Positions 9,551 to 62,577 of a stretch of 64,000 bases of DNA are shown here, in pieces. The notes below the pieces were generated by a model. The model was not told where the DNA came from. It was given only the letters and a program-made list of their open reading frames with translations, and did not search any database. Where the stretch lies: the NCBI GenBank assembly GCA_905182485.1, contig CAJJBO010000004.1:1-64000 (forward strand), read 5' to 3'. The stretch comes from an uncultured Luminiphilus sp. (GTDB taxonomy: Bacteria > Pseudomonadota > Gammaproteobacteria > Pseudomonadales > Halieaceae). Numbering within the stretch: position 1 is the first letter of the stretch; every line of letters starts with the position of its first letter. Made by a program: the position numbers and the translations under genes.

Positions 9551-12500
9551 CCCAAAAGGTCTGTTACAGGGTGGCCTAACCGAGCTCGGCGTCAGGCGTC
9601 CTTGGTTGGTACTGGTCGTGAATTTGCTCATCGCAATCGGCGGACTTGCGGCACTGCTGGCGATTGAAGTCAGAGAGTTGCCCGATGTCGACCGCCCTAT
9701 CGTATCAGTGCGGGCTTTCTTGCCAGGCGCGTCTCCCGAGACGATGGATGCTGAGGTCACTCGATTACTTGAAGGCGCCGCAGCACGGGTCTCCGGTGCA
9801 CTCGAGATCAACTCAGCCAGTGAGGAAAACAACACCCGCATCTGGATCGAATTCCGCTCGGATATTGACGTCGATCAGGCCGCGTCCGATGTCCGCGAAG
9901 CCGTCAGTCGAATTGAACGCGACCTACCCGACGCAGTGGAGCAACTCTCCGTCTTCAAAGCGGATGAGCGCTCAGAAGAAATCATTCGCATTGCCGTCAA
10001 ATCCAACGTTTATGCTGAGGAAGCGCTCAACCGAGTGATCGAGCAGGACATCGTGCCCCGCTTTATCTCACTCCCTGGTGTAGCCGATGTGCCGCTATTT
10101 GGGTCACGGCAGCGTGTCCTCAGAATCATATTAGACCCCCTGCGACTCACCAGCTATGGGCTCACCGTGGCGGATGTCACTGCCGTACTGCGCGCCGCGC
10201 CGCTCGATGTCCCCGCCGGTAGTTTCCGAGCCGGGGATCAACAGCTGTTAGTGCGCGCCGATGCCGCCGTCACCAAAGAAGAAGACATTGCCTCGCTCAT
10301 CATCCGAGATCAGATCCGCATCGGCAATGTCGCAAAGGTCGCGTTCTCACCTGAGGACTCAACGGGTTTTGTCAGACTTAACGGCGAGCGAGTAGTAGGC
10401 ATCGGCATCATCCGACAAGCGGGCTCCAATACGATTGAGATTGCCAAGGGTGTGCGCGCCGCCGTTGACGACGTTAATGCTCGGATGAATGGTGTGACAC
10501 TGCAGGTGATATCCGACGACTCTATCTTTATCCGCGGATCGGTACGCGAAGTCATCACGACCTTACTCATTTCGATTTTGGTGGTCATCGGCACCATCAG
10601 ACTCTTTACGGGCTCAATGCGGTTGACCTTGATTCCAGCCATTGCCATACCCGTATCCTTACTGGGTACCTTAGCCGCGAGCTGGGCCCTCGGGTTCTCG
10701 ATCAATATTCTGACGCTTCTGGCACTGGTGCTCGCAGCTGGCCTCATTGTCGATGACGCCATCGTGGTGCTCGAAAGCGTGCAGCAACGTCGCTCGGAAG
10801 GTGCGGGCCCGAGCGCCGCGGCGGTCACCGGCACGCGTAGAGTTTTTTTTGCAGTGATCGCCACCACCGCCGTACTGGTCGCCGTCTTTATACCGATCGC
10901 CTTTCTGCCGGGGACAGCAGGCCGGTTATTCCAAGAATTCGGTTTGGTGCTCGCTGTGGCTGTCGCGATCTCTTCCTTTGTTGCATTGAGTTTGGTGCCC
11001 GCAGCGATGGCGAATTTACCGCCCGCTGCGCCCAAAGAACGGAGGCTCGGGGTTATCGGCATGCAATTAGCCGAGCAGTATCATCGATCCCTCCGGTTCG
11101 TTCTCAACACTCCGTGGCGAACTTTTATTGCCTGCGTCGTGGCGGCGAGTGGTTCAGCAGCCTTGTATTCTCAATTGGATCAAGAGCTTCTCCCCAAAGA
11201 AGATCGTGGCACGATTAATCTGTTCGCACGGGGGCCCGATGGAGTCGGCCTTGACTACGCTGAACGCCAAGCCGATCGCATGGAAAACTTATTAGTGCCG
11301 CTGCTCGAAAACGGCGAAATCGACAACCTGTACTCAGTGATTGGTCGCTGGGATCCCAATATCGTGTTTATGGTTGCGCGACTCGCCCACTGGGATGATC
11401 GGGACCGGAGCCAGCAGGTCATCGCCGCAGAATTAAAACCCTTGTTTGCCGAGCTCCCGGGCATGACGACTCGTATCTTTGCCGCAAACTCACTTAACTT
11501 GCGGGGTGCCTCCAGTGGCGGGCTGAGTCTCGCCCTATTGGGCACTGACTATGACGATATTTATGCCGTCGCTCGAGACTACACAGATCACATACGCACA
11601 CGACTCGATAGTGTGAGCAGGCCTCGTATCAGCTACGACCCCTCCCAACCACAACTCTCAGTCAAAATTGATCGCGAACGCGCATCAGATCTGAATGTAT
11701 CACTCGATGATATCGCCCAAACCTTGCGTGTCATGGTAGATGGTTCGCGGGTGGTCGATCTCAACGCTGACGATCAAACCGTGCCGATTGTCCTCGAGGC
11801 AGGGTCTGACAAGATCCGAGATCCTGATGATCTTGTGAACCTCTACGTGCGCACAGGCGAAGGTGCGCTGGTTCCCCTATCGAGCTTAGTCCAGCTATCC
11901 GAGAAAGGGGTCGCTGGCCAACTTGATCGACGGGCTCAGCGACGGGCGATTGAGCTTGATGTCGAAATTAAACCAGGCGTTGCGATGCAAACGGCGATCG
12001 ACGATCTCTTTACCCTGGCAGATGAGGTATTGCCCGATGATGTCACGCTCATTACGCGTGGCGAAGCTGCAGCCTTGGTCGAGACCAACCGCGAAACAGT
12101 GATCACGTACGCCTTTGCCCTACTCATTGTCTTTCTTGTCTTGATCGCACAGTTTGAGGGGATCACCTCGGCATTGGTCATCATGGCGATTGTACCCTTT
12201 GGGTTAGCCGCTGCCATTTTCGCCCTATTTTTAACTGGCACATCGCTCAATATATATTCACAAGTAGGGCTGGTGATGCTCATTGGGCTCATCGCTAAAA
12301 ACGGCATTCTGCTGGTCGAATTTGCAGATCAGTTACGCGACAAGGGGTACGGCGTCAGAGAGGCGATCGAAGCGGCTGCGCGTACGCGCTTACGACCTAT
12401 TGTCATGACACTGGTCTCTACCATCTTCGGTGCCCTGCCCCTGATTTTGGCAACAGGGCCCGGCTCAGAGGCCAGGTCTGCGGTTGGCTGGGTCGTATTT

Positions 12501-13123: not shown

Positions 13124-14407
13124 ATGACAGACAGTAAATGGCAACGAGGTTTAGTTATCTTTTCGCTGATTTGTGCGGGGGAAGCCATTTTTACTCTCCC
13201 TTATCATGTCACACGATTTTTTCGCCCCACTTTTTTAGAAGTATTCGATCTCACCGCGACCGAACTCGGTGTCGCACAGAGTGCCTACGGTGTCATTGCC
13301 ATGGTCGCCTATTTTTTTGGTGGGCCCTTAGCAGATCGTTTTGAACCCCGTAAGCTTCTCGCAGGCTCGTTGTGGGCAACCGCATTAGGGGGACTTTACT
13401 TAGCAACCTTTCCTGATGTCACCGGCGTGATGTTGGTATGGGGTTTTTTTGGTCTGACGAATATTTTGCTGTTCTGGGCGGCGCTGATAAAGGTGACACG
13501 CAGCTGGGGCGGCAACGATCAACAAGGCCTCGCCTATGGCTTGCTCGATGGAGGTCGCGGCCTACTCGCCGCTGTTCTAGCCTCGCTGGGCGTGCTCGCC
13601 TTTGCCAGCGCCTTTCCATTGGGATACGACAGCGCGACCCTGACCGAGAAAGGCGCAATACTCAGGCAGGTGATCTACGGCTATACCGCCGCAACGGCGG
13701 CAGTGGGCGTGATGGTGTGGTTTACGCTGCGCGGCATTCCCGTCGAGACCGAAACAGAGCACGACAGCGGATGGGCAACCGCGCTGACCCAATTCCGCGC
13801 GGTGGTTAAGCTCAAAGTCGTCTGGCTCCAAGCCACGGTCTTGGTATGTGCCTACTCAAGCTACAAAGCCTTCGACCAATATGCCTTGTTCGCCGTGCGC
13901 GGTCATGGGATTGATGAGATTGACGCGGCGCAAATTGTCACCGCGGGGGCTTGGACGCGGCCTATTGCGGCATTAGCGCTGGGCTTACTCGGTGATCGCT
14001 TTGGGATTTCGCGCATGGCGCTGGTCTGCTTTGTGCTACTGATCATCAGTCATTCTCTGTTCGCTTTTACCGGGCAGGCACTGGGCAGCCTGTCGATGAT
14101 TCTCTTGAATACTTTGGTCACGGGCGTCGCTATTTTTGGCCTGCGAGGGCTGTATTTTGGTCTGCTCGAAGAAGGACAAATACCCCTCGCTGTCACGGGA
14201 ACTGCTGTGGGTCTAGTCTCGGTGATTGGCTACACGCCCGACGTGTATGTGGCTGCGATCGCGGGGTACCTAATTGACCAAAATCCAGGGCTACTGGGTT
14301 TCCAACACCTGTTTGTGCTGTTACTCGTCTTTTCTGTTGTCGGTGCATTCGCAGCCTTGGCGTTCACGCGACAGGCAACGCCATCATCGTTGGCATCAGG
14401 GCGCTGA
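13124..14407 (+). CDS. MFS transporter
   Basis: About 427 residues with twelve predicted membrane helices. The helix 2-3 loop has GGPLADRFEPRKLL, the characteristic MFS DRxxR-type motif. ATG 13124 was chosen over the in-frame TTG two codons upstream. The family covers sugar-phosphate, organic acid and drug carriers; the substrate cannot be assigned. The 3' end overlaps the convergent TSUP permease gene by twelve bases. Confidence 0.85.
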   Translation: MTDSKWQRGLVIFSLICAGEAIFTLPYHVTRFFRPTFLEVFDLTATELGVAQSAYGVIAMVAYFFGGPLADRFEPRKLLAGSLWATALGGLYLATFPDVTGVMLVWGFFGLTNILLFWAALIKVTRSWGGNDQQGLAYGLLDGGRGLLAAVLASLGVLAFASAFPLGYDSATLTEKGAILRQVIYGYTAATAAVGVMVWFTLRGIPVETETEHDSGWATALTQFRAVVKLKVVWLQATVLVCAYSSYKAFDQYALFAVRGHGIDEIDAAQIVTAGAWTRPIAALALGLLGDRFGISRMALVCFVLLIISHSLFAFTGQALGSLSMILLNTLVTGVAIFGLRGLYFGLLEEGQIPLAVTGTAVGLVSVIGYTPDVYVAAIAGYLIDQNPGLLGFQHLFVLLLVFSVVGAFAALAFTRQATPSSLASGR

Positions 14408-33034: not shown

Positions 33035-33658
33035 TCACAGCGATGCAGCATGATTTGAGAGGTAATCAGCAACCCCTTCAGCCGTATTGACCATACCCGC
33101 ATCGCCTTTCTGCCAACCAGCGGGGCAAACCTGCCCGTGCTCCTCAAAAAATTGCAGCGCCTCCACGACCCTGACCACCTCATCGACACTGCGCCCTAGC
33201 GGCTCATCATTCACCACTTGGTGTCTCACGATACCTTTTTGGTCCATGATAAAGGTGGCTCTCATGGCAACACCAGCCGGATAAAAAGAGTCACTGTCAT
33301 CAGCCAGGATGCCATAGGCAGACGAAATATCTCGGGTCATGTCGGAGACCAGCGGGAACGGAACGGGGCCAATGCCGCCTTGCTCCACGGGGGTATTGCG
33401 CCACGCAAAATGGGTGTGATGCGAATCCGTACTCACTGCGACTACTTCACAGTTAAGGGCTTTCAGTGCAGGCGTTCTATTGGCAAAGGCGATAATTTCT
33501 GAGGGACAGACAAACGTGAAATCCAACGGATAAAAAAATAATGCCGCATATTTGCCCGAAATGGCCTGCCCGAGATAAAAATCGTCGACGATTTCTCCAT
33601 TGGCAAGAACTGCCTGTGATTGAAACAACGGGGCCTTCTTTCCCACTAAAACGCTCAT
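33035..33658 (-). CDS. Typical 2-Cys peroxiredoxin (AhpC/Prx1 type)
   Basis: About 207 residues from ATG 33658, which follows AAAGGA; an in-frame upstream extension is not needed. The peroxidatic Cys51 lies in DFTFVCPSEI and the resolving Cys in HGQVCPAGWQKGD, so it is a typical 2-Cys peroxidase that reduces H2O2 and organic hydroperoxides with thioredoxin or AhpF-type partners. It is divergent from DUF3501 across a Fur-type box, so iron status may control both. Confidence 0.93.
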   Translation of the reverse strand: MSVLVGKKAPLFQSQAVLANGEIVDDFYLGQAISGKYAALFFYPLDFTFVCPSEIIAFANRTPALKALNCEVVAVSTDSHHTHFAWRNTPVEQGGIGPVPFPLVSDMTRDISSAYGILADDSDSFYPAGVAMRATFIMDQKGIVRHQVVNDEPLGRSVDEVVRVVEALQFFEEHGQVCPAGWQKGDAGMVNTAEGVADYLSNHAASL

Positions 33659-33732
33659 GATTTTTCCTTTAGTTTGTTGACCGGAGAATTGATACAACCA
33701 AGCCTCAATGCAGGTTGACTGCCCGCATACTA

Positions 33733-33761
33733 TTGCGAATGGGAATGATTATCAATACTAT
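33733..33761 (+). promoter_or_regulatory. Promoter with Fur-type box between peroxiredoxin and DUF3501
   Basis: A -35-like TTGCGA (33733-33738), a 17-base spacer and a -10-like TACTAT (33756-33761) face the DUF3501 gene. The spacer and flank contain GCGAATGGGAATGATTATC, a recognisable Fur-box-like run of hexamers. It is also 75 bases upstream of the leftward peroxiredoxin start. The assignment is by eye. Confidence 0.6.
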
Positions 33762-34514: not shown

Positions 34515-34547
34515 TTGCTATCATTAATGATAATGACTATCATTATC
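34515..34547 (+). promoter_or_regulatory. Near-perfect Fur box inside a promoter, no clear gene downstream
   Basis: GATAATGACTATCATTATC at 34529-34547 matches the classic 19-base Fur consensus at 17 positions. A -35-like TTGCTA (34515-34520) and -10-like TATCAT (34538-34543) are spaced by 17 bases across it. Transcription would run rightward, but no recognisable protein follows for 400 bases. Confidence 0.7.
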
Positions 34548-39702: not shown

Positions 39703-40740
39703 TTACTGCCATCCTGCGCGGTCAAACACCATGATCGCGGTCGACTGATGAACGCCCAACTCAGTTGCGCTGAGCCCATCCTCTTTAAACTCTCCCAGTG
39801 CCGCCACCTTGGAGGAGGCACCCACACTGGGCACCGCCGGATATTCGTTGTTGCCATCGGCAAATAACGATTGTGCTCGATCACTCGTCAAATACTCAAG
39901 AAATCGAATCGCGTTGTCTCGGTTTGGCGAGGTACTGACCACGCCAGCGCCACTGATATTCACATGCGTCCCGTTGCCTTGCTGACCGGGGAACACAATG
40001 CCAACCGCTGCGGCGACCGCTAAATCGGCTGGGTCGTCAGACGCGGCTAAGCGAGCGAGGTAGTACGTATTCACCACCGCAATCTGACATTCGCCGCTGG
40101 CGACGGCGCGGATCTGTCCCGTGTCGTTGCTTTGAGGCGTTCGAGCAAAATTGCGGACAACGCCCTCCGCCCATGACTCCGCCGCCGCTTCACCCAGATG
40201 CGCCACGATGCTGGCCATCAGTGACACGTTGTAGATGTTGCTGGAAGATCGAATACACACCTTGCCTGCATGGGTGGGATCTGCGAGATCAGTGTAGTCA
40301 GCGAGCGGCGTCGGTAACCCCGCCTCACGGTTATAAACAATCACTCGGGCCCGCTTAGATAAACCAATCCACAGACCCTCGGGGTGTCTCATATTGTCCG
40401 GTAATCGCTCAGTCAAAACCGCAGAGTCCACAGCTTGAAAGATCCCCGCCTGCTCAGCCCGCCACAACCGGCCCGCGTCGACGGTGATCAAAAGATCGGC
40501 AGGGCTGGACTCGCCCTCACTTTGAATACGCGCAATCAACTCATCGGCCCCCGCCTCAATCCGATTGACCTGAATCCCCGTGTCTCGGGTAAAGTCATCG
40601 TAGAGGGCGAGATCCGTGTCGTAATGCCGAGAGGAATACAAATTCACCTCGCCCGCAGTGTCTTGCGATTCCCTGTTGTCGCAGGCAGTGAGTGACAACA
40701 ACGCCATCCAGCAGGCGACGATCTTCGATAATGTGCGCAT
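39703..40740 (-). CDS. fbpA: Ferric-iron ABC transporter, periplasmic binding lipoprotein
   Basis: About 345 residues from ATG 40740. The lipobox ends at a cysteine in LLSLTACDN. VNLYSSRHYDTDLALYDDF is the classic start of FbpA/FutA-type iron-binding proteins, and VVNTYYLARL carries the tyrosine pair used for Fe(III). It would capture ferric iron in the periplasm and hand it to FbpB/FbpC. A Fur-type box (40788-40806) lies about 50 bases upstream, overlapping a plausible -35 region. Intact gene. Confidence 0.92.
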   Translation of the reverse strand: MRTLSKIVACWMALLSLTACDNRESQDTAGEVNLYSSRHYDTDLALYDDFTRDTGIQVNRIEAGADELIARIQSEGESSPADLLITVDAGRLWRAEQAGIFQAVDSAVLTERLPDNMRHPEGLWIGLSKRARVIVYNREAGLPTPLADYTDLADPTHAGKVCIRSSSNIYNVSLMASIVAHLGEAAAESWAEGVVRNFARTPQSNDTGQIRAVASGECQIAVVNTYYLARLAASDDPADLAVAAAVGIVFPGQQGNGTHVNISGAGVVSTSPNRDNAIRFLEYLTSDRAQSLFADGNNEYPAVPSVGASSKVAALGEFKEDGLSATELGVHQSTAIMVFDRAGWQ

Positions 40741-40787
40741 AGAGTGAGCCTTCAGGGTGCCAAGCACGATTGTATGAAGCGATTAAT

Positions 40788-40806
40788 GGTAATGAGAATC
40801 ATTCTA
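40788..40806 (-). promoter_or_regulatory. Fur-type box upstream of fbpA
   Basis: GGTAATGAGAATCATTCTA matches the 19-base Fur consensus at 15 positions. It lies between the fbpC stop (40811) and the fbpA start (40740), just upstream of a TACAAT -10-like element on the minus strand. Confidence 0.65.
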
Positions 40807-40810
40807 CTTA

Positions 40811-41851
40811 TCAACCAATGGATGCGGGACTCGCAAAGACCTTACCGGTTATAGGTGTCACACGAACCCGCATGCCTGCCGACAGCGTTCTGCCCTCCAC
40901 TCTCAAACAATCCAGAAAGGTAATGGCATCCCCCTCCCTCGACTTGAGATAGAGACGATCGAGTCTGCCCACCGCCCTGATCTCGTCGATCAAAAGCCCC
41001 TGTGGATCGGGGTCAATCAACAGATGATCTGCATCCACGACTAGCTTGAGGGCATCGCTCGAAATCGTCGGATCGATCAACGTGGAACGATCCCAATCCC
41101 CCACCGCCGTCGTGATCACTTGATCATGCATTGTGGCGTCAAAAACCTGTGGCTCACCAAACAGCTCCGCGCCGTAAGTCGATCTCGGTGCGTCGAATAA
41201 CCCTTGAGGCGCACCCACGTCGACAATGCCACCGTTATCCAGCACCACCACGTGATCTGCCACCGTCAACACCTCGTCGGGATCATGGGTCACCAATAAA
41301 CCAATCGAGTCTGTTTGACGGATAATCTGCCGAGCATCCTCGCGCAGTGCTCGACGAAACGGCACATCTAAATTGGCGTAGGGCTCATCAAATAACAGCA
41401 CCCGCGGCTCTGGTGCCAAAGCGCGCGCTAACGCCACACGCTGACGCTGCCCCCCCGATAAACTCTCGGGGTAACGATTAGCAAATCAGGCAGGCCAACC
41501 CGACCAAGCCATTGCAAGGCGATCTCATAGGCGCCTTTTTTTGGCAGACCAAATGCAATGTTGTCGGCAACCGTCATGTGAGGAAACAGCGCACCCTCTT
41601 GAAACACCATGCCCACGGAGCGCTGCTCTGGGGGCAACCTCAGTGAAGCACTGGCCAGCGACTCGCCATCAAGCGTGATCTGCCCAGACTGTAGCGTTAA
41701 CAAACCTGCCACCAAGTCGGAGCAAAGTGGTCTTACCACAACCCGACGGCCCGATGAGGCAGGTGATCTTGCCACTATCGCACTGAAGCGAAATATCGTT
41801 GAGCACCGCGTTGTCGTTAAATCGGTGCGATACTTTGTCAATTACGAGCAT
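40811..41851 (-). CDS. fbpC: Ferric-iron ABC transporter ATPase (frame broken twice)
   Basis: Three frames join near 41735 and 41450 to give about 346 residues. Walker A is in [14 protein letters not shown], the Q-loop region in [15 protein letters not shown], Walker B and D-loop in [12 protein letters not shown], and the switch histidine in LLVTHDPDE. The ABC signature region sits at the second break (near 41450). A C-terminal regulatory TOBE-like domain follows. Together with FbpB it powers ferric-iron import. It is divergent from fbpB by 40 bases. Confidence 0.88.
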
Positions 41852-41891
41852 CTGGATACACTACCACTTGAAAGACAGCACGCGACAGTCT

Positions 41892-43512
41892 ATGCGGAAT
41901 CCCTTACTGCGATCTAGCGCTCTTTGGGCATTACCCGCTTGGTGTGATGGCCGGCTTGGTGGCGGTGCCCATTCTGGTCACACTGCTGTCCATCACCGGC
42001 TCGCCGACGCCGGTATGGAGCCACCTCAAGGCGACGGTGCTCAGCGACTACGTCTTGCAAATTCGCTGATTATTAATGGGGCTCACTGCCACGTTCTCGC
42101 TCATCCTGGGCGTCTCCACTGGCTGGCTGATTGGCGCTTGCTCATTTCGAGGGCAGCGCACTTTATCTTGGCTATTGATGCTTCCGTTGTCGGCACCTGC
42201 CTACATTGTGGCTTATGTGTACACCGACCTGCTCGAAGTGTCCGGCCCCGTGCAGAGTGCGCTACGGTCATGGCTTGCGTTGGGAATCGGCGAGCTGCAA
42301 CTGCCGTCGATCCGCACCTTACCGGGTGCCGCACTATTACTGTCGCTGGTGCTCTACCCCTATATTTACCTGCTCGCACGCAATAGCTTTGCAGGGCGCT
42401 CGGGCACTCAATTTGACGCCGCCAGGGTACTAGGGCACGGCCCCTACAGCGCGTTTTTTCGTATCGCACTCCCCGCTGCTCGCCCCGCTATTATCGGCGG
42501 CCTCGCGCTCGTTTTAATGGAGACACTCGCGGACTTTGGAGTGGTCAGTTACTTCTCAGTGCCGACCTTCTCGACGGGGATTTATCGAACGTGGCTTGGT
42601 TTCGGCGACAGTGGTGCAGCGCTCAAGCTCGCGTCGCTCATGCTGTTATTTGTCATTGCACTCATCGGGCTCGAGGAGAGCAGCCGCCGCAGCGCGGTCG
42701 ACCGCAGCGATGTCTCTCGTGCCACCCCCATCTCACTCACTGGTGCACGCGCCCTCCTCGCCGTGACAATCTGCAGCGTCCCGGTCTTGTTGGGATTCGT
42801 AGTGCCCGTTTGCACACTCGCGATATACGCGGTTGAGCACTGGCACCTGTCATCGAACAGGCACTTTGGCACCCTGGTGTTTAACAGCACCTCGCTGGCC
42901 ATTGCGACCGGCATCATGGCCACGATGATTGCGTGGGGATTAGCGTACCTAAAACGCCTGAACCCCAGCCCGCTTAATTATGGTCTGATCCGCCTATCCA
43001 CCCTAGGTTACGCACTGCCCGGTATCTTGCTGGCACTCGCCATACTAGACGCATCAGGCACATTGGCTCAGTGGTGGCCCGCCAGCGCTCGCTTCATGCT
43101 CTCTGGCGGCATTGCGCTGCTGTTGTATGCTTATGTTTGTCGCTTTCTGACAGTTGCCTATCAGTCGGTGGACGCTGGCTTCTCCAGCATTTCCCCTGAC
43201 ATCGATGCCGCCGCTCGAACCTTGGGTGCCGCACCGAGTCAGGTACTGTGGCGCATTCATTTACCACTGCTGCGACCCAGCATCCTCGCTGCCAGTCTCC
43301 TCGTGTTCGTTGATGTCATGCGCGAGCTACCCGCGACACTGATCTTACGGCCCTTCAACTTTGACACCCTCGCCACGCGAGTTTATCGATTGGCAAGCGA
43401 TGAGCGCTTGGCCGATGCCTCGCTACCCGCGATCGTGATCGTATTGGTGGGCGTCATCCCGGTGCTGTTGTTACAGCGTTCCAGCGCTACTCGAGAGCCG
43501 ATCGAGACCTGA
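41892..43512 (+). CDS. fbpB: Ferric-iron ABC transporter permease (frame broken near the start)
   Basis: About 540 residues with two fused permease halves, as in FbpB/SfuB. ATG 41892 starts RNPLLRSSALWALPAW; the frame shifts near 41945 and twice near 42065 to reach the conserved NSL and TATFSLILGVSTGWLIG. Two EAA loops are visible (FDAARVLGHGPYSAFFRIALP and DAAARTLGAAPSQVLWRIHLP). An apparent in-frame TGA at the second break is explained by indels, not by selenocysteine, because the neighbouring frame restores the conserved NSL. Confidence 0.87.
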
Positions 43513-46337: not shown

Positions 46338-46367
46338 TTGCGAATGATTATCATTTACATATATACT
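46338..46367 (+). promoter_or_regulatory. Proteorhodopsin promoter with embedded Fur-type box
   Basis: A -35-like TTGCGA (46338-46343) and -10-like TATACT (46362-46367) are separated by 18 bases. The spacer carries AATGATTATCATT (46343-46355), a perfect 6-1-6 palindrome that is the core of Fur boxes; the full 19-base window 46340-46358 matches the consensus at 14 positions. It lies 44 bases before the proteorhodopsin ATG. A bound Fe-Fur repressor would block RNA polymerase, so expression should rise when iron is scarce. Confidence 0.65.
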
Positions 46368-46410
46368 CCCCAAGATACCCAAATATGGGTTAACTGAAGA
46401 GGTTATAAAA

Positions 46411-47136
46411 ATGAGTAACGTGATGGCACTTGACCCAACTGACTATGTTGGGGTTTCTTTTTGGGTGATCTCAGCTGCAATGCTCGCTGCTACGTATTTC
46501 TTTTCTGGGTAGAGCGAGACAGGGCTATTGGTAAGTGGAAGACCTCGCTGACCGTAGCTGCCATGGTTACTGGTATTGCAGCCTTACATTATTTTTACAT
46601 GCGTGAAGTTTGGGTTCATACAGGCGAGATCACCAACCGTATTTAGCTACGTAGATTGGTTGTTAACAGTTCCACTTCAGATTGTTGAGTTTTATTTGAT
46701 ACTTGCTGCTATCGCAGTTGTCGCAGTATCAGTATTTTGGCGACTACTTATTGCTTCAGTAGTAATGCTAGTGGCAGGTTATCTTGGTGAAGTTGGTTCA
46801 GTTGGAGTTTGGACTGGATTCACAGTAGGTATGATAGCTTGGTTATATATTATTTATGAAGTATTCGCTGGAGAAGCTAGTAAAATTAGTGCTAGCGAAG
46901 GTACCGCTCGCATGTCACGAAAGGCATTTAATGCGCTGCGAATCATCGTCACCTTTGGCTGGTCAATATACCCGCTGGGTTATTTGTGGGGATACTCCGT
47001 CGATGGCAGTCCTGCGACATTAAACTTGGTTTACAACCTTGCAGACTTCGTCAATAAAATAGCGTTTGGGGTTGTTATATGGTCAGCCGCAACGGCCTCC
47101 TCTGAGCTTCCCAACGAATCAAATGCCGCAGGGTAA
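46411..47136 (+). CDS. Proteorhodopsin, blue-tuned, frame broken twice as written
   Basis: ATG 46411 follows GAAGAGG. Frames join at 46501 (a T run one base short, otherwise TAG) and at about 46629 (an extra A) to give about 241 residues with seven helices. Features in green-proteorhodopsin numbering: H75 in LHYFYMR, proton acceptor D97 in YVDWLLTVP, Gln at the spectral tuning site 105 (PLQIVEF, blue light), proton donor E108, and the retinal lysine in LADFVNKIAFG. The usually invariant R94 reads as Ser (VFSYVDW), next to the second indel, so it may be an error or a real change. Bases 46681-46860 are only about 37% GC by hand count, lower than neighbours. No retinal synthesis gene is nearby. 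Confidence 0.93.
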
Positions 47137-47192: not shown

Positions 47193-47225
47193 ACACAGGT
47201 GCCCTCCCCGGCACCTGTGTTTCTT
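47193..47225 (+). terminator. Intrinsic terminator of proteorhodopsin
   Basis: ACACAGGTGCC-CTCCCC-GGCACCTGTGT forms a perfect 11-bp stem followed by TTCTTT. It is 57 bases after the proteorhodopsin stop, so the gene is a single-gene transcript. Confidence 0.9.
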
Positions 47226-47904: not shown

Positions 47905-47933
47905 TTGCGAATGAGAATGATTCGTATTATTAT
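47905..47933 (+). promoter_or_regulatory. Promoter with Fur-type box for the haem uptake operon
   Basis: A -35-like TTGCGA (47905-47910), 17-base spacer and -10-like TATTAT (47928-47933) precede the TonB receptor. Across it lies GCGAATGAGAATGATTCG, a Fur-box-like hexamer series. The shared TTGCGAATG start links it to the proteorhodopsin and DUF3501 promoters. Confidence 0.6.
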
Positions 47934-47965: not shown

Positions 47966-50185
47966 ATGAGACTAATAGGACTACTCACCGCAGCTGCAAC
48001 AGCTTTTGCGACTGTGCCACCCCTGTTGATGGCCGCTGATCTTGAGACCATTACCGTCATTGGATCTCGCACCGAGAGACCATTGAAGGAAATAGCCGCC
48101 ACCATCGATATCATCGATACACAACAGATAGAAAAAGAGCTCGCGCGGGATATCGCAGATCTGGTTCGCTTCGAGCCAGGTGTCACTGTGTCCGGAACAG
48201 GTAGCCGGTATGGACTTTCAGGCTTCAATATCAGAGGTGTCGGCGGAAACAGAGTGCTAACGCTAGTCGATGGGGTAAGAGTTGCTGAAGAATTCTCATT
48301 TGGCCCATTTTTGTCTGCGCGGCGTGACTTCGTGGACATTGATAGTCTCGCCACCGCTGAGATAGCTCGAGGTCCGATATCGTCTTTATGGGGGAGCGAT
48401 GCCTTAGGCGGTGTTGTCGCGTTTAACACACTGTCGCCAAGAGATTTGCTCCGCGAGAAACGTTTCTACTCGGGCTATAAGCTCGGCTACTCCAGCGCTG
48501 ACCACTCAAGCGTGGGCACCGTCACAATAGCGGGTGACGCGGGGCAAGTCTCTTCCATGGTGTTACTCACACTGAGAAACGGACAGGAAACTGAAAATAA
48601 TGCCAACGGGGGCCCAGAGTATGGAGCCGAACGCACCAGCCCTGATCAGCAGGATACAAAAGCTCGCAACGTAACGGCCAAATTAGACTGGAATATCGCG
48701 GACAATCAGTCGCTCATCGTCACTCTGGAGAGCTTCAAGAATGAAATGGACACGAAGATATTGTCAGACTACGGCATCTATTCCCGAGGGACGCTGATTA
48801 ATTCGAGAGAGGCCGCGGACGAAAGGGACCGTTCCAGAGCCACTCTCAGATATCAGCTTAACCAAGTTTTTCCATGGCTTGAGAGCGCAGCGCTCACCGC
48901 CTATTGGCAGGAATCAGAGAGTTACCAGTCGCTGATAGAGTCACGTAGCCCTCCTCCTTATCTGTTTAATCAATCGCGAGATCGGATTTCATCCTTTGAA
49001 CAGACCGTGGTGGGTGCAAACGCACAACTTTCCAGCGTCTTTTTATCATCCAATACCACCCACACCATTACTTACGGACTCGACTATTACGAGACCTCAA
49101 ACGAATCTGTCAGAGATGGCGGAACGGTCGACGCGGCAGGAAACCCGGTGCGCGAATTTACCCCGTTACCTACCAGGGACTTTCCGAAAACTGACGTGGA
49201 AAACATTGCCTTTTTCATACAAGACGAGATTGAACTGCTTGATGGAAGGCTGCTGCTATCGCCCGGTGCACGTTACGACAGGAATAAAGCGACAACCGCA
49301 CCTGATTCCCTCTACTTTAGGGGAAACCCTGGCGTCGCAACTCCTATTGATTTTGATGAATCCGAAGTGTCACTGAAATTTGGTGCCGTCTACCAGCTCA
49401 ACTCGGCTCTATCAATCGTTGGACGTTATAGCGAAGGATTCAGAGCGCCCCCATTTGATGATGTCAACCTAGGCTTCACTAATGTATTGGGTGGTTACAA
49501 AACCATTTCGGCGCCAAACCTCACCTCTGAAACTAGCGAGAGTTTCGAGCTGGGGCTCAGATTCAGTGGATCAAACGTCGAAGCGTCACTGGCAGTCTTC
49601 ACGAATGATTATGATGATTTCATCGCATCCGCAGGCAGTGGTCATTGCCCAACCAGCTATCAACAGTTTGGTTGCATTGATCCCGAGGACGGCTTTTTGG
49701 TCTTTCAGTCGGAAAACATTTCTCAAGTCACTATCGATGGCGCAGAGCTCAGATTCTCGATGAAACTTGACTCAATTGGGGTCCCTACTCTCTCAGTCAG
49801 GGGCGCCATCGCCTATGCAAAGGGTGAAGACAAGGATACCGACGAGCCCATCAATACTGTACAGCCGCTTACTGGCGTAATTGGATTGTCTTACCGCTCA
49901 AACAATGATGTGTGGGGTGGCGATCTCATCTGGACAGGAGTTCAGGCAAAAGATGCGTCTGATATTTCGGGTAGTGCTTTATATGCAACCAGTGGCTATG
50001 GAATCTTGGATTTAATGGGTGAGTTCAGCTTTAACCAGGCCCTCAGCATTAACTTCGGCGTCTTCAACCTGACCGATAAAAGCTATATCCGCTGGGCAGA
50101 TTCGCCCGGTATTGGACGGGACGCTGCGCAACGGTTTACGCAGCCTGGGGTGAACTATAGTGTTGGCATCAAATACGAGCTATAA
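47966..50185 (+). CDS. TonB-dependent haem/haemoglobin-type receptor
   Basis: An intact 739-residue outer-membrane receptor. A signal peptide (to about residue 22) is followed by a TonB-box-like LETITVIGSRT. The plug domain has IADLVRFEPGVTVSG, FNIRGVGGNRVLTLVDGVR and ARGPISSLWGSDALGG, typical of the haemoglobin/transferrin/lactoferrin receptor group. A FRAP box occurs near residue 491 (EGFRAPPFDD) with an APNL element after it, but no histidine lies between them where characterised haem receptors have one. The barrel ends NYSVGIKYEL. It heads an operon with hmuTUV, which supports haem as the ligand. Confidence 0.9.
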   Translation: MRLIGLLTAAATAFATVPPLLMAADLETITVIGSRTERPLKEIAATIDIIDTQQIEKELARDIADLVRFEPGVTVSGTGSRYGLSGFNIRGVGGNRVLTLVDGVRVAEEFSFGPFLSARRDFVDIDSLATAEIARGPISSLWGSDALGGVVAFNTLSPRDLLREKRFYSGYKLGYSSADHSSVGTVTIAGDAGQVSSMVLLTLRNGQETENNANGGPEYGAERTSPDQQDTKARNVTAKLDWNIADNQSLIVTLESFKNEMDTKILSDYGIYSRGTLINSREAADERDRSRATLRYQLNQVFPWLESAALTAYWQESESYQSLIESRSPPPYLFNQSRDRISSFEQTVVGANAQLSSVFLSSNTTHTITYGLDYYETSNESVRDGGTVDAAGNPVREFTPLPTRDFPKTDVENIAFFIQDEIELLDGRLLLSPGARYDRNKATTAPDSLYFRGNPGVATPIDFDESEVSLKFGAVYQLNSALSIVGRYSEGFRAPPFDDVNLGFTNVLGGYKTISAPNLTSETSESFELGLRFSGSNVEASLAVFTNDYDDFIASAGSGHCPTSYQQFGCIDPEDGFLVFQSENISQVTIDGAELRFSMKLDSIGVPTLSVRGAIAYAKGEDKDTDEPINTVQPLTGVIGLSYRSNNDVWGGDLIWTGVQAKDASDISGSALYATSGYGILDLMGEFSFNQALSINFGVFNLTDKSYIRWADSPGIGRDAAQRFTQPGVNYSVGIKYEL

Positions 50186-50186
50186 A

Positions 50187-51050
50187 ATGGCCAATCTGAT
50201 AGTAAGGCTGTTGCTACTCGTTTTAGCCCCCATCGGTCACGCCGGAGAGGACGATAGCTGTTCAAAAGCCGGCGACACGTCTCGAGTCGTCGCCGCAGGG
50301 GGATCCATTGCCGAAATGTTCTTCGCCCTCGAGGCGGAGCATCTGCTCGTAGCGGTGGATAGCACCGCAAGCTATTTGCCTAGGGCAGCAGCACTACCTT
50401 CGATAGGTTACGTCAGAAACCTATCTGCCGAGGGTATTCTCACACTAGCGCCAACGGTGATTATTGGTGAGCATGATATGGGTCCGAGCGCTGTCATTGA
50501 TCAACTATCAATGGTTGACGTTGAAATAAGACGCGTGATCGAGACACACAGTGCCCAAGGCATAGTCGACAAATTTCTGTGTATCGCCAAAATCATAGAT
50601 CGTTTTGAAACTGCTGAGGCGGTCTTATCAGATCGCTTCTATGAAACGATTCAGCAGTTGACTGAAGGACCACGAGCTACCCGACCTGCGCAAGATCACG
50701 CAATGCTGATCCTTAATTTTGTTGATAATCAGCCGATCGTTGCAGGCGCCAATACCTCAGGAGATGGGATCCTGCGGATGGCGGGCGCTCGTAATATTTT
50801 CAGCGATATAGATGGTTGGAAACCGATTTCTCGCGAGTTGCTTAGCATTTCTAAACCCGATCACATTGTTCTTACCCAGCGCGCTCTGGAGTCGATCGGA
50901 GGCATTAGCAGCATGCAAGCAGATCCGCTTCTTTCGTCCACAAACGCCTTAAAGAATGAGAACGTACATGTCTTTCAAGGAATGAGCTTATTGGGATTTG
51001 GGCTGCAAACGCTTGACGTCGCACTGCAATTGAAAGATGCAATTGAGTAA
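50187..51050 (+). CDS. hmuT: Haem ABC transporter, periplasmic binding protein
   Basis: About 287 residues from ATG 50187, one base after the receptor stop. A signal peptide (LIVRLLLLVLAPIGHAG) precedes the class III binding-protein fold: RVVAAGGSIAEMFFALEAE, LAPTVIIGEHDMGPSAVIDQ and DGILRMAGARNIFSDIDGW. It would carry haem across the periplasm to HmuUV. The assignment to haem rather than a siderophore rests on the family pattern and on the receptor and monooxygenase neighbours. Confidence 0.88.
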   Translation: MANLIVRLLLLVLAPIGHAGEDDSCSKAGDTSRVVAAGGSIAEMFFALEAEHLLVAVDSTASYLPRAAALPSIGYVRNLSAEGILTLAPTVIIGEHDMGPSAVIDQLSMVDVEIRRVIETHSAQGIVDKFLCIAKIIDRFETAEAVLSDRFYETIQQLTEGPRATRPAQDHAMLILNFVDNQPIVAGANTSGDGILRMAGARNIFSDIDGWKPISRELLSISKPDHIVLTQRALESIGGISSMQADPLLSSTNALKNENVHVFQGMSLLGFGLQTLDVALQLKDAIE

Positions 51051-51056
51051 TTGAAG

Positions 51057-52091
51057 ATGCAAGGCAAGCTCGCCCGACTGAGCCTAAATCTTACGGCCAT
51101 AGACAGCAAATGGTCATCGGTCGGACTGGCAGCGCTGTTCCTTCTTGTACTCACACTGGGACTGTCGGTAGGTGCTGTTCCACTTCCCATCTGGGATATT
51201 GTCACAGGTTCAGCAGATTCGCTCGAAAGTACGATATTTACTCAAATTAGAGCCCCTCGGGTACTTCTTGCTGCAGCTGTGGGAGCTTCACTAGCGTGCG
51301 CGGGCGCCGTCCTTCAAGGGCTTTTTAGAAACCCTCTCGCAGACCCCGGTCTTATCGGTGTCTCGGGTGGCGCGGCTCTCGGGGCAGTGGCAGTAATCGT
51401 TTTCGGTTCGTGGCTCGATATCCCGCCTGAACTAGCCGGTTACACCATGCCAGTCGCAGCCGTTTTCGGGGCGCTAGTAGTTACAGGTATCCTCTACCTT
51501 TTTGCAAGCCGCTTTGGACAATTTAAAATTGTGACCGTGCTACTGGTCGGCATTGCCATTAATGCGTTGTCCAGTGTCGGCATTGGTCTTTTCCAATACT
51601 TAAGCGATGACACGCAATTGCGGACGCTAATCTTTTGGATGATGGGTAGCTTCGGGCGAGCACAATGGAGCACTGCGTTGCCCTGTATCGCCATGATGGC
51701 CCTCGCTACTTTTGCTCTGATAGGGAGATCAGGGCCACTCGATAAACTTCAGCTTGGAGAGTTTGAGGCCTTCCACCTGGGTATCGATGTCATATCCGTG
51801 AAACGCCAGGTGGTGCTTCTCTCCGCCGTCTGCGTCGGTGCGGGCGTCGCCGTTGCAGGAATCATTGGTTTCGTCGGTCTGGTTGTACCTCACATCGTGA
51901 GATTCACTCTAGGGGTTGCACATCGGCCTCTGATCTTGGGGTCGGGGTTTTTGGGTGCAACACTCATGGTCTCCGCCGATCTGGTTGCAAGAACAGCCGT
52001 ACTGCCTGCCGAGATACCAGTAGGTCTAGTAACCAGTGCTCTGGGAGCGCCTTTCTTCTTGTGGTTAATCACGAAGGTAGCTCCACGGTGA
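51057..52091 (+). CDS. hmuU: Haem ABC transporter permease (FecCD family)
   Basis: About 344 residues with ten predicted helices. IRAPRVLLAAAVGASLACAG and LQGLFRNPLADPGLIGVSGG are the FecCD/BtuC signature near the N-terminus, and GIIGFVGLVVPHIVRF the ATPase-contact loop. It starts within seven bases of hmuT's stop (an in-frame TTG at 51051 is an alternative) and overlaps hmuV by 31 bases. Intact. Confidence 0.9.
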   Translation: MQGKLARLSLNLTAIDSKWSSVGLAALFLLVLTLGLSVGAVPLPIWDIVTGSADSLESTIFTQIRAPRVLLAAAVGASLACAGAVLQGLFRNPLADPGLIGVSGGAALGAVAVIVFGSWLDIPPELAGYTMPVAAVFGALVVTGILYLFASRFGQFKIVTVLLVGIAINALSSVGIGLFQYLSDDTQLRTLIFWMMGSFGRAQWSTALPCIAMMALATFALIGRSGPLDKLQLGEFEAFHLGIDVISVKRQVVLLSAVCVGAGVAVAGIIGFVGLVVPHIVRFTLGVAHRPLILGSGFLGATLMVSADLVARTAVLPAEIPVGLVTSALGAPFFLWLITKVAPR

Positions 52092-52870
52092 CACTTGCCG
52101 TTCGAGACTTGTCTGTGAAATTCGGTACGAGAGTCATTCTCAAGTCAATTATTGCGAAAATAGAACCTGGCCGCATTACCGTTCTCATCGGCCCAAATGG
52201 AGCCGGTAAATCAACGCTCTTGTCGGGTTTCGCAGGGCACTTGGCCGATTACTCAGGGCTAATCACTATCGACGAAACCCCTATTGACAACTTCACACCC
52301 AAACAATTGGCTGCGCTCAGAGCGGTCATGATGCAATCGGACAACCTTGTCTTCGAGTTTTCAGTTAGCGATGTTATTCGCATGGGACTGTTACCACACG
52401 TCACCTGCAATGCGACCGCACAAACAGAAGTCATCGAGGATCTGGCTGATCGATGCGGGATCCGACACTTGCTGCATCAATCGATACTCAGGTTGTCGGG
52501 TGGAGAGAAGCAAAGGGTGCATTTTTGTAGGTGTCTCATACAGATTTGGTGCAATACAGGCTCATATCCAGACTCAGCGCAATATTTGATCCTAGACGAG
52601 CCCACATCAAGCCAAGATATCGCTGGAGAACTGCGCATTCTCAATCTAGTGAAAGAGAAGAGCTCCGAGGGTGTCGGAGTCCTGCTGGTCCTACATGACC
52701 TGAATATTGCCGCTCACTTCGGCGATTCGTTTTATCTTCTGAAAAATGGGAGCGTATTCGCTCACGGGGAGGCAGACGAAGTGCTTACAGAATCAACGCT
52801 TTCGAACGTTTACGAGACCCCGGTCAAAATCGAAACGAGAGAAAACAAAATCCAAATCAATACCTTCTAG
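52061..52870 (+). CDS. hmuV: Haem ABC transporter ATPase
   Basis: A 269-residue ATPase starting at GTG 52061 inside the permease gene. Walker A is GPNGAGKST near residue 46, the signature LSGGEKQR near 147, Walker B YLILDEPTSSQD, and the switch histidine is in VLHDLNIAAHF. A short insertion between signature and Walker B is typical of HmuV proteins. It would energise haem import. Confidence 0.9.
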   Translation: MVNHEGSSTVTLAVRDLSVKFGTRVILKSIIAKIEPGRITVLIGPNGAGKSTLLSGFAGHLADYSGLITIDETPIDNFTPKQLAALRAVMMQSDNLVFEFSVSDVIRMGLLPHVTCNATAQTEVIEDLADRCGIRHLLHQSILRLSGGEKQRVHFCRCLIQIWCNTGSYPDSAQYLILDEPTSSQDIAGELRILNLVKEKSSEGVGVLLVLHDLNIAAHFGDSFYLLKNGSVFAHGEADEVLTESTLSNVYETPVKIETRENKIQINTF

Positions 52871-55732: not shown

Positions 55733-57680
55733 TCATGCCCTATCTAGGAGTCGCCCCGTAAGGACAACGCGCTTATCACCATCTCGTCGGGTGACGCCAA
55801 CTTGGTCAAAATACTCAAGTAAATCGACGCATGAATTACGTCCCAACCCTAGATGATCTCTCGCATCCGCTACCGAGAACATCCCTTGAGTCTCAAACAG
55901 CGTGGTCAAACTTTGAGCGAAATGATTGAGTCGATCGGACAGCAGAAAGCGCGTAGTGCTGATCTTGTGAACTCGACCATCTTTGACGGCCTCCATCAGA
56001 GCAGACTGAAGCGCTTCTCGACTAAGCTGGAGCGACTCGAGTAAATCTGACAGAGTCGGTATTTGGGCCTGATACTGACTCAGTATTGTGCTTATCAACT
56101 CCCAGTCCCTAGCTTCTTGGGCCGTCACTACCGGCTCGACGCCGGGCAAACGGACCCGACCACTAACCCGTTTTAAAAGCGAGCTATTTACCAAATCCGC
56201 TAAGGCGGCCTCCAGGAGCGACTCTTTATCCCTCCCCTGAAGTTGAGCGAGGCATTTAACTCGCAGGTGGTCAGTGGGCACTCCATCCGTATTTTGACTA
56301 TCCCGATAACAGCATTCCACCAGCTCGACTATCGTTTTTTGGCTACTAGCCCAGACATCATCAAGCACGCAAAAATCTTGCCCATTCATTCTGAAGTGAT
56401 GGATACGCGTGGCTAATTTAGCGCTGTGCAGTGCCGCCTCAAAATCCTGCGGCAGCGCATTACAAATCGACATGAAATGCGCTGTGTTTAACGCCTCTCG
56501 CCGATTAACGAGCAACTCCGTAAGCATCTGACCGAAGGTGGGTAACCCCATGGCCTGAAGATACCCTAGCGCTTCTTTATTCTTTGCTCGTGCCGGCTCC
56601 GCTCTGGGCTCCAGCACGATGCCTCCCGCTATGGTTGTGGACTCGCTGCTATCCCGAAGCAGAAAACGATCGCCCCAACAGCAATCTATGTCAGTTTCGA
56701 CAATCACCTGTACAAGTACTGTTGCGTCTCTCACTAGCCCGGTAGCGCGAGCGGATTCCTCCAAGAGGTACAGCTTTGCAGCTTGTCGCTTAGCGCCGAT
56801 ATAAATTTTAACCTTTGACAAATGTTTCACAGTGAATGGCAAGCTTTCAGACACAATCAGTCTGGCGTTGAAGCGATGAGAGGCCAGAACACCACTGCCC
56901 CCGTTAAGCCAGTCGCCACGCTTAAGGTCTGACTTTTTGATACCCGTCAATTGAAGCGCGCAGCGCTGTCCAGCTCTGCCGTATTGCGTCTTGGCGTTCT
57001 GAGAGTGTATCGAGCGAACTCTTACCTTCTTATTTTCAGGTAACAGCGTCAAATGATCCCCTACCGACACGCCACCTGAGATCGAGGTGCCCGTGACGAT
57101 TAATCCGCTGCCCTGTAGGTGAAAGACCCGATCAATCGATAACCGAAAATAGCCCCTCTCCGGTTTATCTTGCAAATTCTTTGCCGTTTTAACGAGAAAT
57201 TGTTTAAGCTCGGTAATCCCCGCCCCATCCGCATTGCTCACCACAAAACTCGGGGCGCTTGCCATCGGGATATGTGTTTGGATGGAAGCGAGCAGTGCTT
57301 CGGCAACGCCTGACCGCTCTGAAACGTCGATTTTGTCGATATGCGTTATCACAATGACATATTGATCCACACCCAACAAACGCAGCACTTCTAAGATGCT
57401 CAATGGTTTGAGGCATCGGCCCCTCGTTTGCCGCAACCACGACTAACGCAAGGTCTACGCTGCACACACCGGAAATCATCGTATTGATGAAACGGTGATG
57501 ACCGGGCACGTCAATAAAGCCGATATTGAAACCCGCTTCTGCCTGCAAAAAAGCGTATCCGAGTTCTATCGATAACCCACGTTGTTTTTCCTCTTCGAGC
57601 CTATCGGTATCAACCCCAGACAACTGTTTCACCAGGGAGGTCTTGCCATGGTCGACGTGGCCTGCGGTCGCGATGATCAA
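55733..57680 (-). CDS. selB: Selenocysteine-specific elongation factor SelB (one frame break)
   Basis: About 648 residues across a break near 57420. The G-domain has [14 protein letters not shown] (G1), [12 protein letters not shown] (G3) and VITHIDKID (G4). Beta-barrel domains follow, then winged helices at the C-terminus ([20 protein letters not shown] and [20 protein letters not shown]) that bind SECIS hairpins in mRNA. SelB delivers Sec-tRNA to UGA codons on the ribosome. Its TTG start at 57680 overlaps the selA stop, so translation is coupled. Confidence 0.93.
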
Positions 57681-59165: not shown

Positions 59166-62100
59166 TTACCAGGTATCGATATAGGCATGCTTTTTTTCGA
59201 CGCGAGGTGGCCGTGGTGGCAGGCGCTTCAGCCCCTCGGCAATCCAAGAGCGCGTCTCGGCGGGATCAATCACATCATCAATACCACCCCCCGACGCCGC
59301 ATTTACCGCCTTGGCCAGCTCGTACTGCTCCTCTACTTTTTCTTTAAATAGCTGCTGTCTTGCTTCCGCTGATTCTATCGCCTCTAGCTCTTTTCTAAAG
59401 CCCAGCTTTACGCTGCCCTCTATATTCATCGCCGCAAATTCTGCCGTTGGCCATGCGATTGTCAGTAACCCCATGAGTGAACTGCCGCCGCACATTGCCT
59501 GAATGCCTAATCCATACGCTTTACGCACAACGACTCCAAACAGTGGCGTCGTTATATTTGCACCTGCATTGAACATCCGTGCCGAGTGCCTAACCAGGCC
59601 TGTTGCCTCAACTTGAGGCCCAACCATTAAGCCGGGGCAGTCCATCAAACTCAAAATGGGTATGTCGAAGGCATCGCATAACTTCATAAATCGAGCGCCT
59701 TTGTCGGCGCCTGCAGAATCGATTGCACCACTCAGATGATGAGGGTTATTGGCAATAACGCCCATCGGCTTGCCCTCTATGCGAATGAATGCAGTAATAA
59801 CTCCAGCACCAAATGATTTTCTTATCTCAAGCACGGAGTCGATGTCAGCTATCGTTTTTATAATTTCACGCATGTCATAGAGTCTCACCCGATTCTCTGG
59901 AACCACATGTCGTAAACTAATCTGGTCCGCACACTCCCACTGCTCAATTTCTCCCTGAAAGTAAGACAGGTATTTTTTAGCCACCGCGACCGCTTCTTGC
60001 TCATCCTTCACCAGTATGTCCACTACTCCATTTGGGACTTGGGTCGACATGGGTCCCACTTCTTCCGGTGAATAAACGCCCAAACCACCGCCCTCAATCA
60101 TTGCGGGTCCGCCCATACCAATGGTTGAATTCTCAGTCGCGATAATCACATCACAACAAGCCAGTAGGACAGTATTGCCAGCAAAGCATCGCCCATGATT
60201 CACACCAATCAGTGGGACCGCTCCTGAAAGTTTTGCAAACTGAGTAAACGTCTGAACATCAAAAGAAACTGCGGGCCCCAGTGAATCATCCCCAGGTCGC
60301 CCACCACCGCCTTCACTGAAAAGCACAAGGGGCAACCGAAATCTAAGGGCCAGCTCAAATAATCGATCTTGCTTGTAATGACCTCGGCCACCCTGCGTAC
60401 CGGCAAGGACCGTGTAGTCATAATGTACCAACATGGCTGAGGAAGCTTTTTCACCAAACAGAGACGCATTAATCGTACCGGTACCACCGATCACGCCGTC
60501 GGCGGGGCTGCGTTTGCGAAGCGATTCTGAATCATGGCGTTGATGCTGACGAGCCACTACTAGAGGCCAATATTCCTTGAAAGAACCTTCATCCATCAAC
60601 TCACGGATATTTTCGCGTGGCATACGCCCACCGCGTGATCTCCGTTTAGCAACCGCTTCTTGTCGATTCTCATCGAGCGTGTAAGCGTGTCGGTCGAAGC
60701 TCTCCTGTAAATCCGGCCTTATGTGGTTTACGTCCATTTGCACTTCTGGGGCTTTGTCTAGCTTGTCAAACTGAGCCTCTTCAAGATACAGGATGGACTG
60801 ATTCTCAGTGACAATACTGCCCACGGTGAGATCGATCTGGCGAACAATCCCGTCGCAGGTTGCCCTTATCTCATGCTCCATTTTCATCGCATCGAGCACC
60901 AAAACTAACTCACCAGAGCGGACTTCCTGGCCGAGATCACAATTAAGATCGATAATGGTTCCTTGTATAGGTGACGTGATAGCAACGAGCCCTTCGTGAA
61001 GGCTTGCCACATCAACCGGTGATTTCATACCCTCCATTGACGTCGGCGAAGACCGATGAGAGAACAGCGCCAAAGGATCATTCCCGTTTGAATCCGCCGG
61101 CAATCCAGCCCCGGCATTTTTTGCCTGCGTTAAGTTTGATACGAAGCGATCAGGCCCTTCCCACTCTGAGGTGAGCGCTTCTATGTTTTCATCTATCCAG
61201 CGCGTGTGGATTTTCCCCTGAGCGAAGTCAGGGTGGCTGATGATATTTTTTATGAAGGACAAGTTGGTCCTAATGCCCTCCAATCGGAACTCCGACACAG
61301 CTCTGATCGACTTTCTCGCCGCATCTGCAAATTGAGCTGACTTCTCGTGAACAATGACCTTTGCGATCAGGGAATCAAAGGCAGTATTGACCTCGTAGCC
61401 CACGTAGCCATATCCGTCTGTCCGCACGCCTGGACCATTTGGCGCTTCGTATCCGGTTAAAACACCAGAGCCGGGCAAAATGGTGCCGTCAGAATTGATC
61501 GTCTCCAAGTTCACTCGCGCCTGTATGGAGAAACCGTTATTCAACGTTGCATGAGGCTCCCTCAGGCCCACGTCGGCCAAGCTAGAACCCAGTGCGATCT
61601 GTATCTGCCCTCGTACCAAGTCGAAGCCAGTGATCTCTTCTGTGACCGTGTGCTCCACTTGCAGCCGAGCATTAGCCTCAATAAACACAAATCGCTCGTC
61701 GGGCGAATTAACATCAATGAGAAACTCGAAGGTACCGAGACTAAGATAGTGATGTTGCCGAGCAAATATCAGTGCTGCGTCAGTAATCTTTTCCCTCAAA
61801 CTCGCTGATAAACCTGGTGCCGGCGCGACCTCCACAATTTTTTGGTTGCGCCGCTGCACAGAACACTCTCTATCGCCTAGGTGACTGATGTCACCCATCA
61901 GATCCCCAATGATCTGAATTTCTATATGCTTGGCCCGACTTCAAAAACTCTTCGACGTATACCTGGTCATTACCGAATGCGGCTTGAGCCTCAGATTGAC
62001 ATCGAGTAAAGGCTTCCTCTAGTTCAGACTCATCGTAAACAACGCGGGTCCCTCTTCCCCCGCCTCCCATAACCGCTTTTAAAATGATCGGTCCACTGGT

Positions 62101-62577
62101 CGCGTTGAAGAAGACCCTTGCCTCATCGATCGTCACCGATCGATCACTGCCCGCTAGCACGGGCACACCTGCATCAATTGCGGCTTTTCTTGCCGCTACT
62201 TTGTCGCCAAAGAGCTCAAGATGCTCTGGTTTTGGACCAATGAACACAATATTGGCCTCTCTGCACCGCAGTGCAAAATCTGCACGCTCCGATAAAAATC
62301 CGTAGCCCGGATGAATCGCATTGCAACCAGATTCCTTTGCCGCATGAATAATCTCGTCAATGTCCAGATAAGCTCGCGGTCCGGCACCCGGTATTAAAAT
62401 CGCCTCATCCGCTATGTTGGTGTGCAAACTAGTGCGGTCATCGGACGAAAATATACTGACCGAGCGAATACCACTATCCGCAGCCGCTCTGGCAATGCGA
62501 ACGGCTATTTCCCCTCGATTGGCAATTAAAATGCCTCCCAAAGTGGCGTTAACTTCTGACTCTATCACTCTGCCCAC
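59166..62577 (-). CDS. Single-chain acyl-CoA carboxylase: biotin carboxylase, biotin carrier and carboxyltransferase (one frame break)
   Basis: About 1137 residues after joining frames near 61915. The biotin carboxylase part has ILIANRGEIAVRIARAA, AIHPGYGFLSERADFA, MGGGGRGTR and FIEANARLQVEHTVTE. The biotin lysine is in LVLDAMKMEHEIRA near the middle. The carboxyltransferase half has NHGRCFAGNTVLLACCDV and GVVVRKAYGLGIQAMCGGS. All three parts in one chain resemble long-chain acyl-CoA carboxylases (LCC). GTG start at 62577 overlaps the CaiB stop (TAGTG), one operon. It carboxylates an unknown acyl-CoA, possibly one made by the CoA-transferase. Confidence 0.9.

Follow-up and report, generated by a model that had tools for sequence, protein, structure and literature searches.

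Much of the sunlit ocean is short of iron, and respiration is costly in iron. The role and timing of bacterial proteorhodopsin (PR) are still under debate, and a 2025 paper calls the role of PR in bacterial iron metabolism unclear (PMC11833320). The DNA analysed here (64,000 nucleotides, hereinafter designated the window; part of contig C4 of assembly G000, which is 2.17 Mb in 42 contigs and 69.6% complete) carries a PR gene with a Fur-type palindrome just upstream, and raises the question of whether iron status governs this light-driven pump. A hard-wired link between the two would yield a precise prediction in named genomes. We put at about three in four the probability that the PR promoter belongs to the host's Fur regulon, with iron-loaded Fur repressing PR and iron shortage releasing it.

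A Fur-type box between promoter-like hexamers

The PR locus contains the following features.

46338-46343, + strand: -35-like hexamer TTGCGA of the PR promoter (promoter scan)
46340-46358, + strand: Fur-type box, 19-mer (pattern, consensus and matrix scoring)
46362-46367, + strand: -10-like hexamer TATACT, 18-base spacer from TTGCGA (promoter scan)
46398-46402, + strand: AGAGG, likely ribosome-binding site, 8 bases 5' of the ATG at 46411
46411-47136, + strand: proteorhodopsin gene (PF01036), frame interrupted twice in the G000 assembly
47193-47220, + strand: intrinsic-terminator-like hairpin 3' of PR (terminator scan)

The box contains a perfect 13-base palindromic core, AATGATTATCATT, at 46343-46355, 55 bases from the PR start. 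The preliminary description had placed this palindrome between TTGCGA and TATACT at 18-base spacing, and its coordinates are correct. Compared with GATAATGATAATCATTATC, which we take to be the 19-base gammaproteobacterial Fur operator consensus, the 19-mer at 46340-46358 matches at 15/19 positions on its better strand; a hand count on the + strand agrees with the 14/19 first scored by eye. The location of the box between the predicted -35 and -10 elements is one from which RNA polymerase could be blocked. The promoter scan by itself is unremarkable, with four promoter-like sites versus a shuffle mean of 2.7. The hairpin 3' of PR, of a kind found twice in the region versus 1.8 times in shuffles, implies that PR may be a single-gene unit. 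In a region rich in Fur-type sites the box might act for a neighbouring gene instead of PR, a reading that we find barely credible, as the SDR-like gene upstream starts more than 400 bases away on the opposite strand and the heme receptor downstream carries a box and a promoter-like site of its own, beyond the terminator-like hairpin.

PF01036 matches occur in 2/57 genomes of the genus, 20/140 of the family and 54/390 drawn from the order. The second PR of the genus, in Halieaceae bacterium AH-326-F22 (hereinafter designated G039), has a 17/19 box at the equivalent place, 51 bases from the PR start (55 in the window); the box is present at both PR genes found in the 57 genus genomes. When 187 bases upstream of each gene are compared, the longest stretch common to both is AATGATTATCATTT, 14 bases long (the next longest is 7), and none of 1000 shuffled pairs reaches 14. 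Dinucleotide shuffles of the 300 bases 5' of helix A reach 15/19 with p = 0.003 for the window PR, the corresponding value for the G039 PR region being 0.0005, and the exact core appears in 0/5000 shuffles of either upstream region.

The motif is also enriched genome-wide. At up to two mismatches, the 13-mer occurs at 42 sites in the whole 2.17 Mb assembly versus 10 for a backwards control, exact copies being confined to PR and C11:321; in the window it yields 13 matches (both strands, 8 places) versus 1.5 expected, and the fixed 19-mer consensus at 14/19 or better yields nine positions versus one for the reversed control. G039 has eight sites at up to one mismatch versus none in its control. 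As the preliminary description had proposed, the box was scored with a Fur-type matrix, here trained on ten sites with the PR sites left out; one training site (C11) precedes a gene without Pfam match and a redoxin gene. The window PR site scores 22.3 bits and ranks third of 189,811 G000 positions, which come from stretches mostly chosen for containing sites and include about 4 kb counted twice. The G039 PR site scores 24.5 bits, the top of its 19 kb; left-out training sites score 18.3-26.0 bits, whereas a complement-matrix control never exceeds 12.5. Because the training sites were picked through the 13-mer and most of the stretches for their sites, the matrix lends support but is not an independent test.

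Taken with the position of the 14-base block at the same place in both genes, these shuffles argue that the PR box is not due to chance. A palindrome arising by accident in an AT-rich spacer would fit the G+C content of 37% in the 150 bases 5' of PR (53% for the window) and the fact that sigma-70-like hexamers are expected by chance; given the shuffle values above, we regard such an origin as highly improbable.

The proteorhodopsin gene and its host genomes

The window PR matches PF01036 with E 2e-33. Its translation contains YVDWLLTVPLQIVEF and ADFVNK, which provide the DTE motif, the retinal lysine and a Q at the colour position; from the roles of these residues, PR is predicted to be a blue-tuned proton pump. 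In G039 the frame is intact (238 aa), and its product is nearest to the solved proteorhodopsin 4jq6 (E 1.6e-84). The two genus PRs share 83% identity over 226 residues and are sisters in a 75-row tree with support of 91/97, which is below the starred level; some Methylophilaceae PRs are equally similar (84% identity). The G039 PR lies on another contig than the iron-uptake island of that genome and has other neighbours than the window PR, so the box either was kept with the PR gene or may have been acquired twice in the genus. The G+C content of PR (45% versus 53% for the window) and its patchy spread fit a horizontal arrival.

The window PR frame resumes after two breaks. SMC-like and RecF-like genes of G000 (named from family and length) are also in pieces, which makes base-calling errors the likely cause of the PR breaks, with a pseudogene as the alternative. 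Other window genes are apparently split by frame breaks, for example at 55733-57680 and 59166-62577 (ORF list, by eye), and the split genes suggest an error-prone assembly. The gene for retinal-forming Blh (PF15461), found in 9/140 family genomes (8 over the cut-off), was not found in G000 or G039, both incomplete assemblies, which agrees with the Halieaceae PR strains lacking retinal genes that are described in one study (PMC10100682).

The twice-broken frame, the missing Blh and the restriction of PR to 2/57 genus genomes are also what would be expected if the operator were a true Fur-type site in front of a decayed passenger, an inherited site that no longer matters here. We consider this unlikely, as the G039 frame is intact, the SMC-like and RecF-like genes of G000 are fragmented as well, and the long last piece of the window gene alone is still a PR (PF01036, E 5e-33).

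Iron-type neighbours, the regulator and a proposed switch

The window PR has an Fbp-like ABC transporter on one side and, on the other, a TonB heme receptor followed by an importer. These genes and the further Fur-type sites of the window are as follows.

33035-33697, - strand: peroxiredoxin, divergent from the DUF3501-like gene (Pfam)
33735-33759 (19-mer 33738-33756), no strand assigned: Fur-type box between the divergent genes, conserved in G039
from 33792, + strand: DUF3501-like gene (Pfam)
34529-34547, no strand assigned: site closest to the consensus in the whole window, 18/19 (consensus scan)
39703-43512, both strands: Fbp-like ABC transporter, whole (Pfam; NCBIfam below cut-off)
39703-40767, - strand: Fbp-like binding protein (best NCBIfam 2-aminoethylphosphonate, below cut-off)
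40788-40806, - strand: Fur-type box 5' of the Fbp-like substrate-binding protein (pattern and matrix)
40811-41437, - strand: Fbp-like ATPase piece (NCBIfam ferric, below cut-off)
42076-43512, + strand: Fbp-like permease (NCBIfam molybdate, below cut-off)
47907-47925, + strand: Fur-type box, heme-receptor promoter (pattern and matrix)
47966-50185, + strand: TonB-dependent heme/hemoglobin receptor (TIGR01785, TIGR01786 over cut-off)
50160-52870, + strand: importer, heme/B12/siderophore class (Pfam; NCBIfam below cut-off)
50160-51050, + strand: importer periplasmic protein (best NCBIfam B12, below cut-off)
51051-52091, + strand: importer FecCD permease (best NCBIfam B12, below cut-off)
52061-52870, + strand: importer ATPase (best NCBIfam heme, 254.8 bits versus a cut-off of 261)

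Heme is the probable substrate of the importer because of the adjoining heme receptor, and ferric iron is the inferred substrate of the Fbp-like transporter, which reaches no substrate-specific cut-off. The PR motif is shared with the heme-receptor, Fbp-like and ferritin-like genes of G000 (the site of the last lying 316 bases from the gene) and also with the peroxiredoxin. In G039 the same box type stands at the orthologous promoters of the Fbp-like protein (75% identity), the heme receptor (73%, its start set at 10991, which aligns with the start in the window) and the peroxiredoxin (72%), the counterpart of the peroxiredoxin/DUF3501 site being L258 2540-2558. The hexamer TTGCGA adjoins the box at the heme-receptor promoter as well (47905): a TTGCGA-AATGA junction occurs at the window PR and at both heme receptors (G000 and G039), and recurs at DUF3501 with one change in the window; the G039 PR has TTGATA instead. 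Not all matches are functional, since some further sites fall within genes or 5' of genes that are not known to be connected with iron. The 18/19 site at 34529-34547 lies about 340 bases 5' of a pectinacetylesterase-like gene.

Matrix, genus ortholog and neighbourhood together lend good support to a Fur-type operator within the PR promoter, as first proposed. The box, its position, its conservation and its company are apparent from the DNA itself; binding by Fur, repression and a physiological benefit are what we infer from them.

The chief gap in this argument is the regulator. A strong PF01475 match is present in 52/57 genus genomes, and the one genus Fur that was compared is over the NCBIfam Fur cut-off and closest to the solved Fur 1mzb (E 5e-56). 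A canonical Fur gene was not found in G000 (69.6% complete) or G039 (88%); in these two, as in G035, G037 and G043, PF01475 is matched only weakly. Both PR genomes thus fall among the five genomes without a strong Fur, which is odd. In relatives bamE adjoins fur; a search for bamE detected it in three controls and in none of these five genomes, which points to a genome region missing from the assemblies as the reason for the missing Fur. A relative's SMC_N-family protein, presumably recN-like, used as a query against 20 loci, matched nothing beyond the control L158 and a G043 piece (residues 24-184 of 482). A strong Fur match is lacking in 2/2 PR genomes versus 3/55 of the others; a genuine loss of Fur in PR-bearing genomes was considered and not accepted, since bamE is absent too. 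Three near-complete Fur-bearing relatives have only one, one and two sites at up to one mismatch, which tells against the preferred reading.

Since searches of G000 and G039 recovered no PF01475 member other than the Zur-like paralog, the box could be read by another Fur-family metalloregulator of this kind. We think this quite improbable: the best NCBIfam hits, neither of which reaches its cut-off, are Zur for the G000 paralog and the zinc protein ZrgA for the adjoining gene, and the boxes accompany genes for a heme receptor, an Fbp-like transporter, a ferritin-like protein and a peroxiredoxin.

Under the preferred reading, regulation by Fur, Fur-Fe(II) would occupy the box that lies between the two promoter hexamers, blocking RNA polymerase, when iron is plentiful. 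When iron is short, Fur would leave and PR would be transcribed alongside the Fbp-like and heme importers; the predicted outcome is release of PR under iron starvation. At such times a blue-type proton pump that works without iron would generate proton motive force in place of the proton pumping of a limited, iron-rich respiratory chain, and its output would help to pay for the TonB-dependent import that is then in demand. The presence of the box at both genus PR genes suggests that these cells may switch the pump on when iron is short.

In G039, locus L257 (13051-15140; G039:C18) holds divergent genes for a nickel superoxide dismutase and an NAD-dependent formate dehydrogenase, iron-free enzymes beside the iron-uptake island; the promoter gap between the two genes contains an exact Fur-type core (13810-13822). 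We offer as a tentative extension, on balance doubtful, an iron-sparing energy switch in which Fur would govern the importers together with the iron-free PR and, in G039, also formate dehydrogenase and nickel superoxide dismutase; the Methylophilaceae pair would then have reached such wiring separately. If true, light and formate would replace iron-rich respiration under iron shortage.

Rhodopsin genes beyond the genus and known systems

The preliminary description had named, in advance, the lack of a box at related PR genes as grounds for refuting it. Within the genus the box is there (2/2); it is not a general PR trait. We scored the upstream DNA of 145 PF01036 genes, reduced to 140 by dropping five duplicates (with L018 and L072 still one gene) and to 125 distinct regions by stricter removal. 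The sample includes the best 80 of 549 relatives and excludes L033 and L035 (upstream DNA ending at the contig end), L088 (no usable upstream DNA) and order-level matches in G278 and G481. The exact core occurs in 3/125 regions, those of the window, G039 and Methylophilaceae L057, and a one-mismatch core in 1/125 (Methylophilaceae L063); all others have at least two mismatches. The upstream regions of L199, L204 and L215 match at 12, 12 and 9 of 19 positions, with no core at up to two mismatches. The box as a general PR trait was rejected on this count, two regions of 125 plus the weaker Methylophilaceae pair.

For the 123 non-genus regions, shuffles predict 0.01 exact cores, rising to 0.2 cores when one mismatch is allowed, and at least two regions at up to one mismatch arise in 0.5% of 200 shuffle rounds. 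Both the L057 and L063 boxes lie directly 3' of tRNA-Pro(ggg), about 200 bases 5' of PR. No box was found upstream of L070; the PRs of L070 and L063 share 98% identity. As a second instance of a box at PR, the Methylophilaceae pair is a lead only. The extended-box pattern has four matches in viral contigs.

Two studies bear on rhodopsin pumps and low iron. Koedooder 2020, working on Photobacterium angustum S14, is said to have addressed the same question, the PR response to iron limitation in a marine gammaproteobacterium, and PR reportedly rose in stationary phase regardless of iron; the Photobacterium PR upstream regions in our sample, L115 (P. angustum ATCC 25915) and L122 (sp. SKA34), which are not S14 itself, match the consensus at 12/19 each. 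Diatom proteorhodopsins were reportedly studied under low iron by Marchetti 2015; they too are rhodopsin pumps implicated in coping with low iron, although in a eukaryote.

In the SAR11 literature, repeat models of Fur operators are described and SAR11 is said to be without classical Fur boxes (PMC3090418), and a study of SAR11 under iron limitation does not mention rhodopsin (PMC2864753).

The preliminary description knew of no bacterial case with such a layout, a statement that Anabaena corrects. There, according to two papers, a FurA site at asr was predicted and is reported as validated, asr is strongly induced by iron starvation, and the authors proposed for it a role as a low-iron light-driven pump (PMC4005646, PMC4788461). 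A Fur-family site at a rhodopsin gene has precedent; in the open-licence literature searched, as far as its texts were accessible, we noticed no heterotroph whose proton-pumping PR is described as being under Fur. In both the Anabaena and the Halieaceae system a microbial rhodopsin gene is preceded by a Fur-family site. The two differ in that Anabaena is a cyanobacterium with a sensory rhodopsin, whereas a DTE-type pump stands here beside importers in a heterotroph; the FurA site is A/T-rich, unlike the GATAAT of the present box, and asr is reportedly induced even with FurA overexpressed. In sequence, -35/-10 placement and iron-uptake neighbours, the PR box resembles gammaproteobacterial Fur operators; it departs from them in its putative target, a light pump that yields energy, where theirs is an importer.
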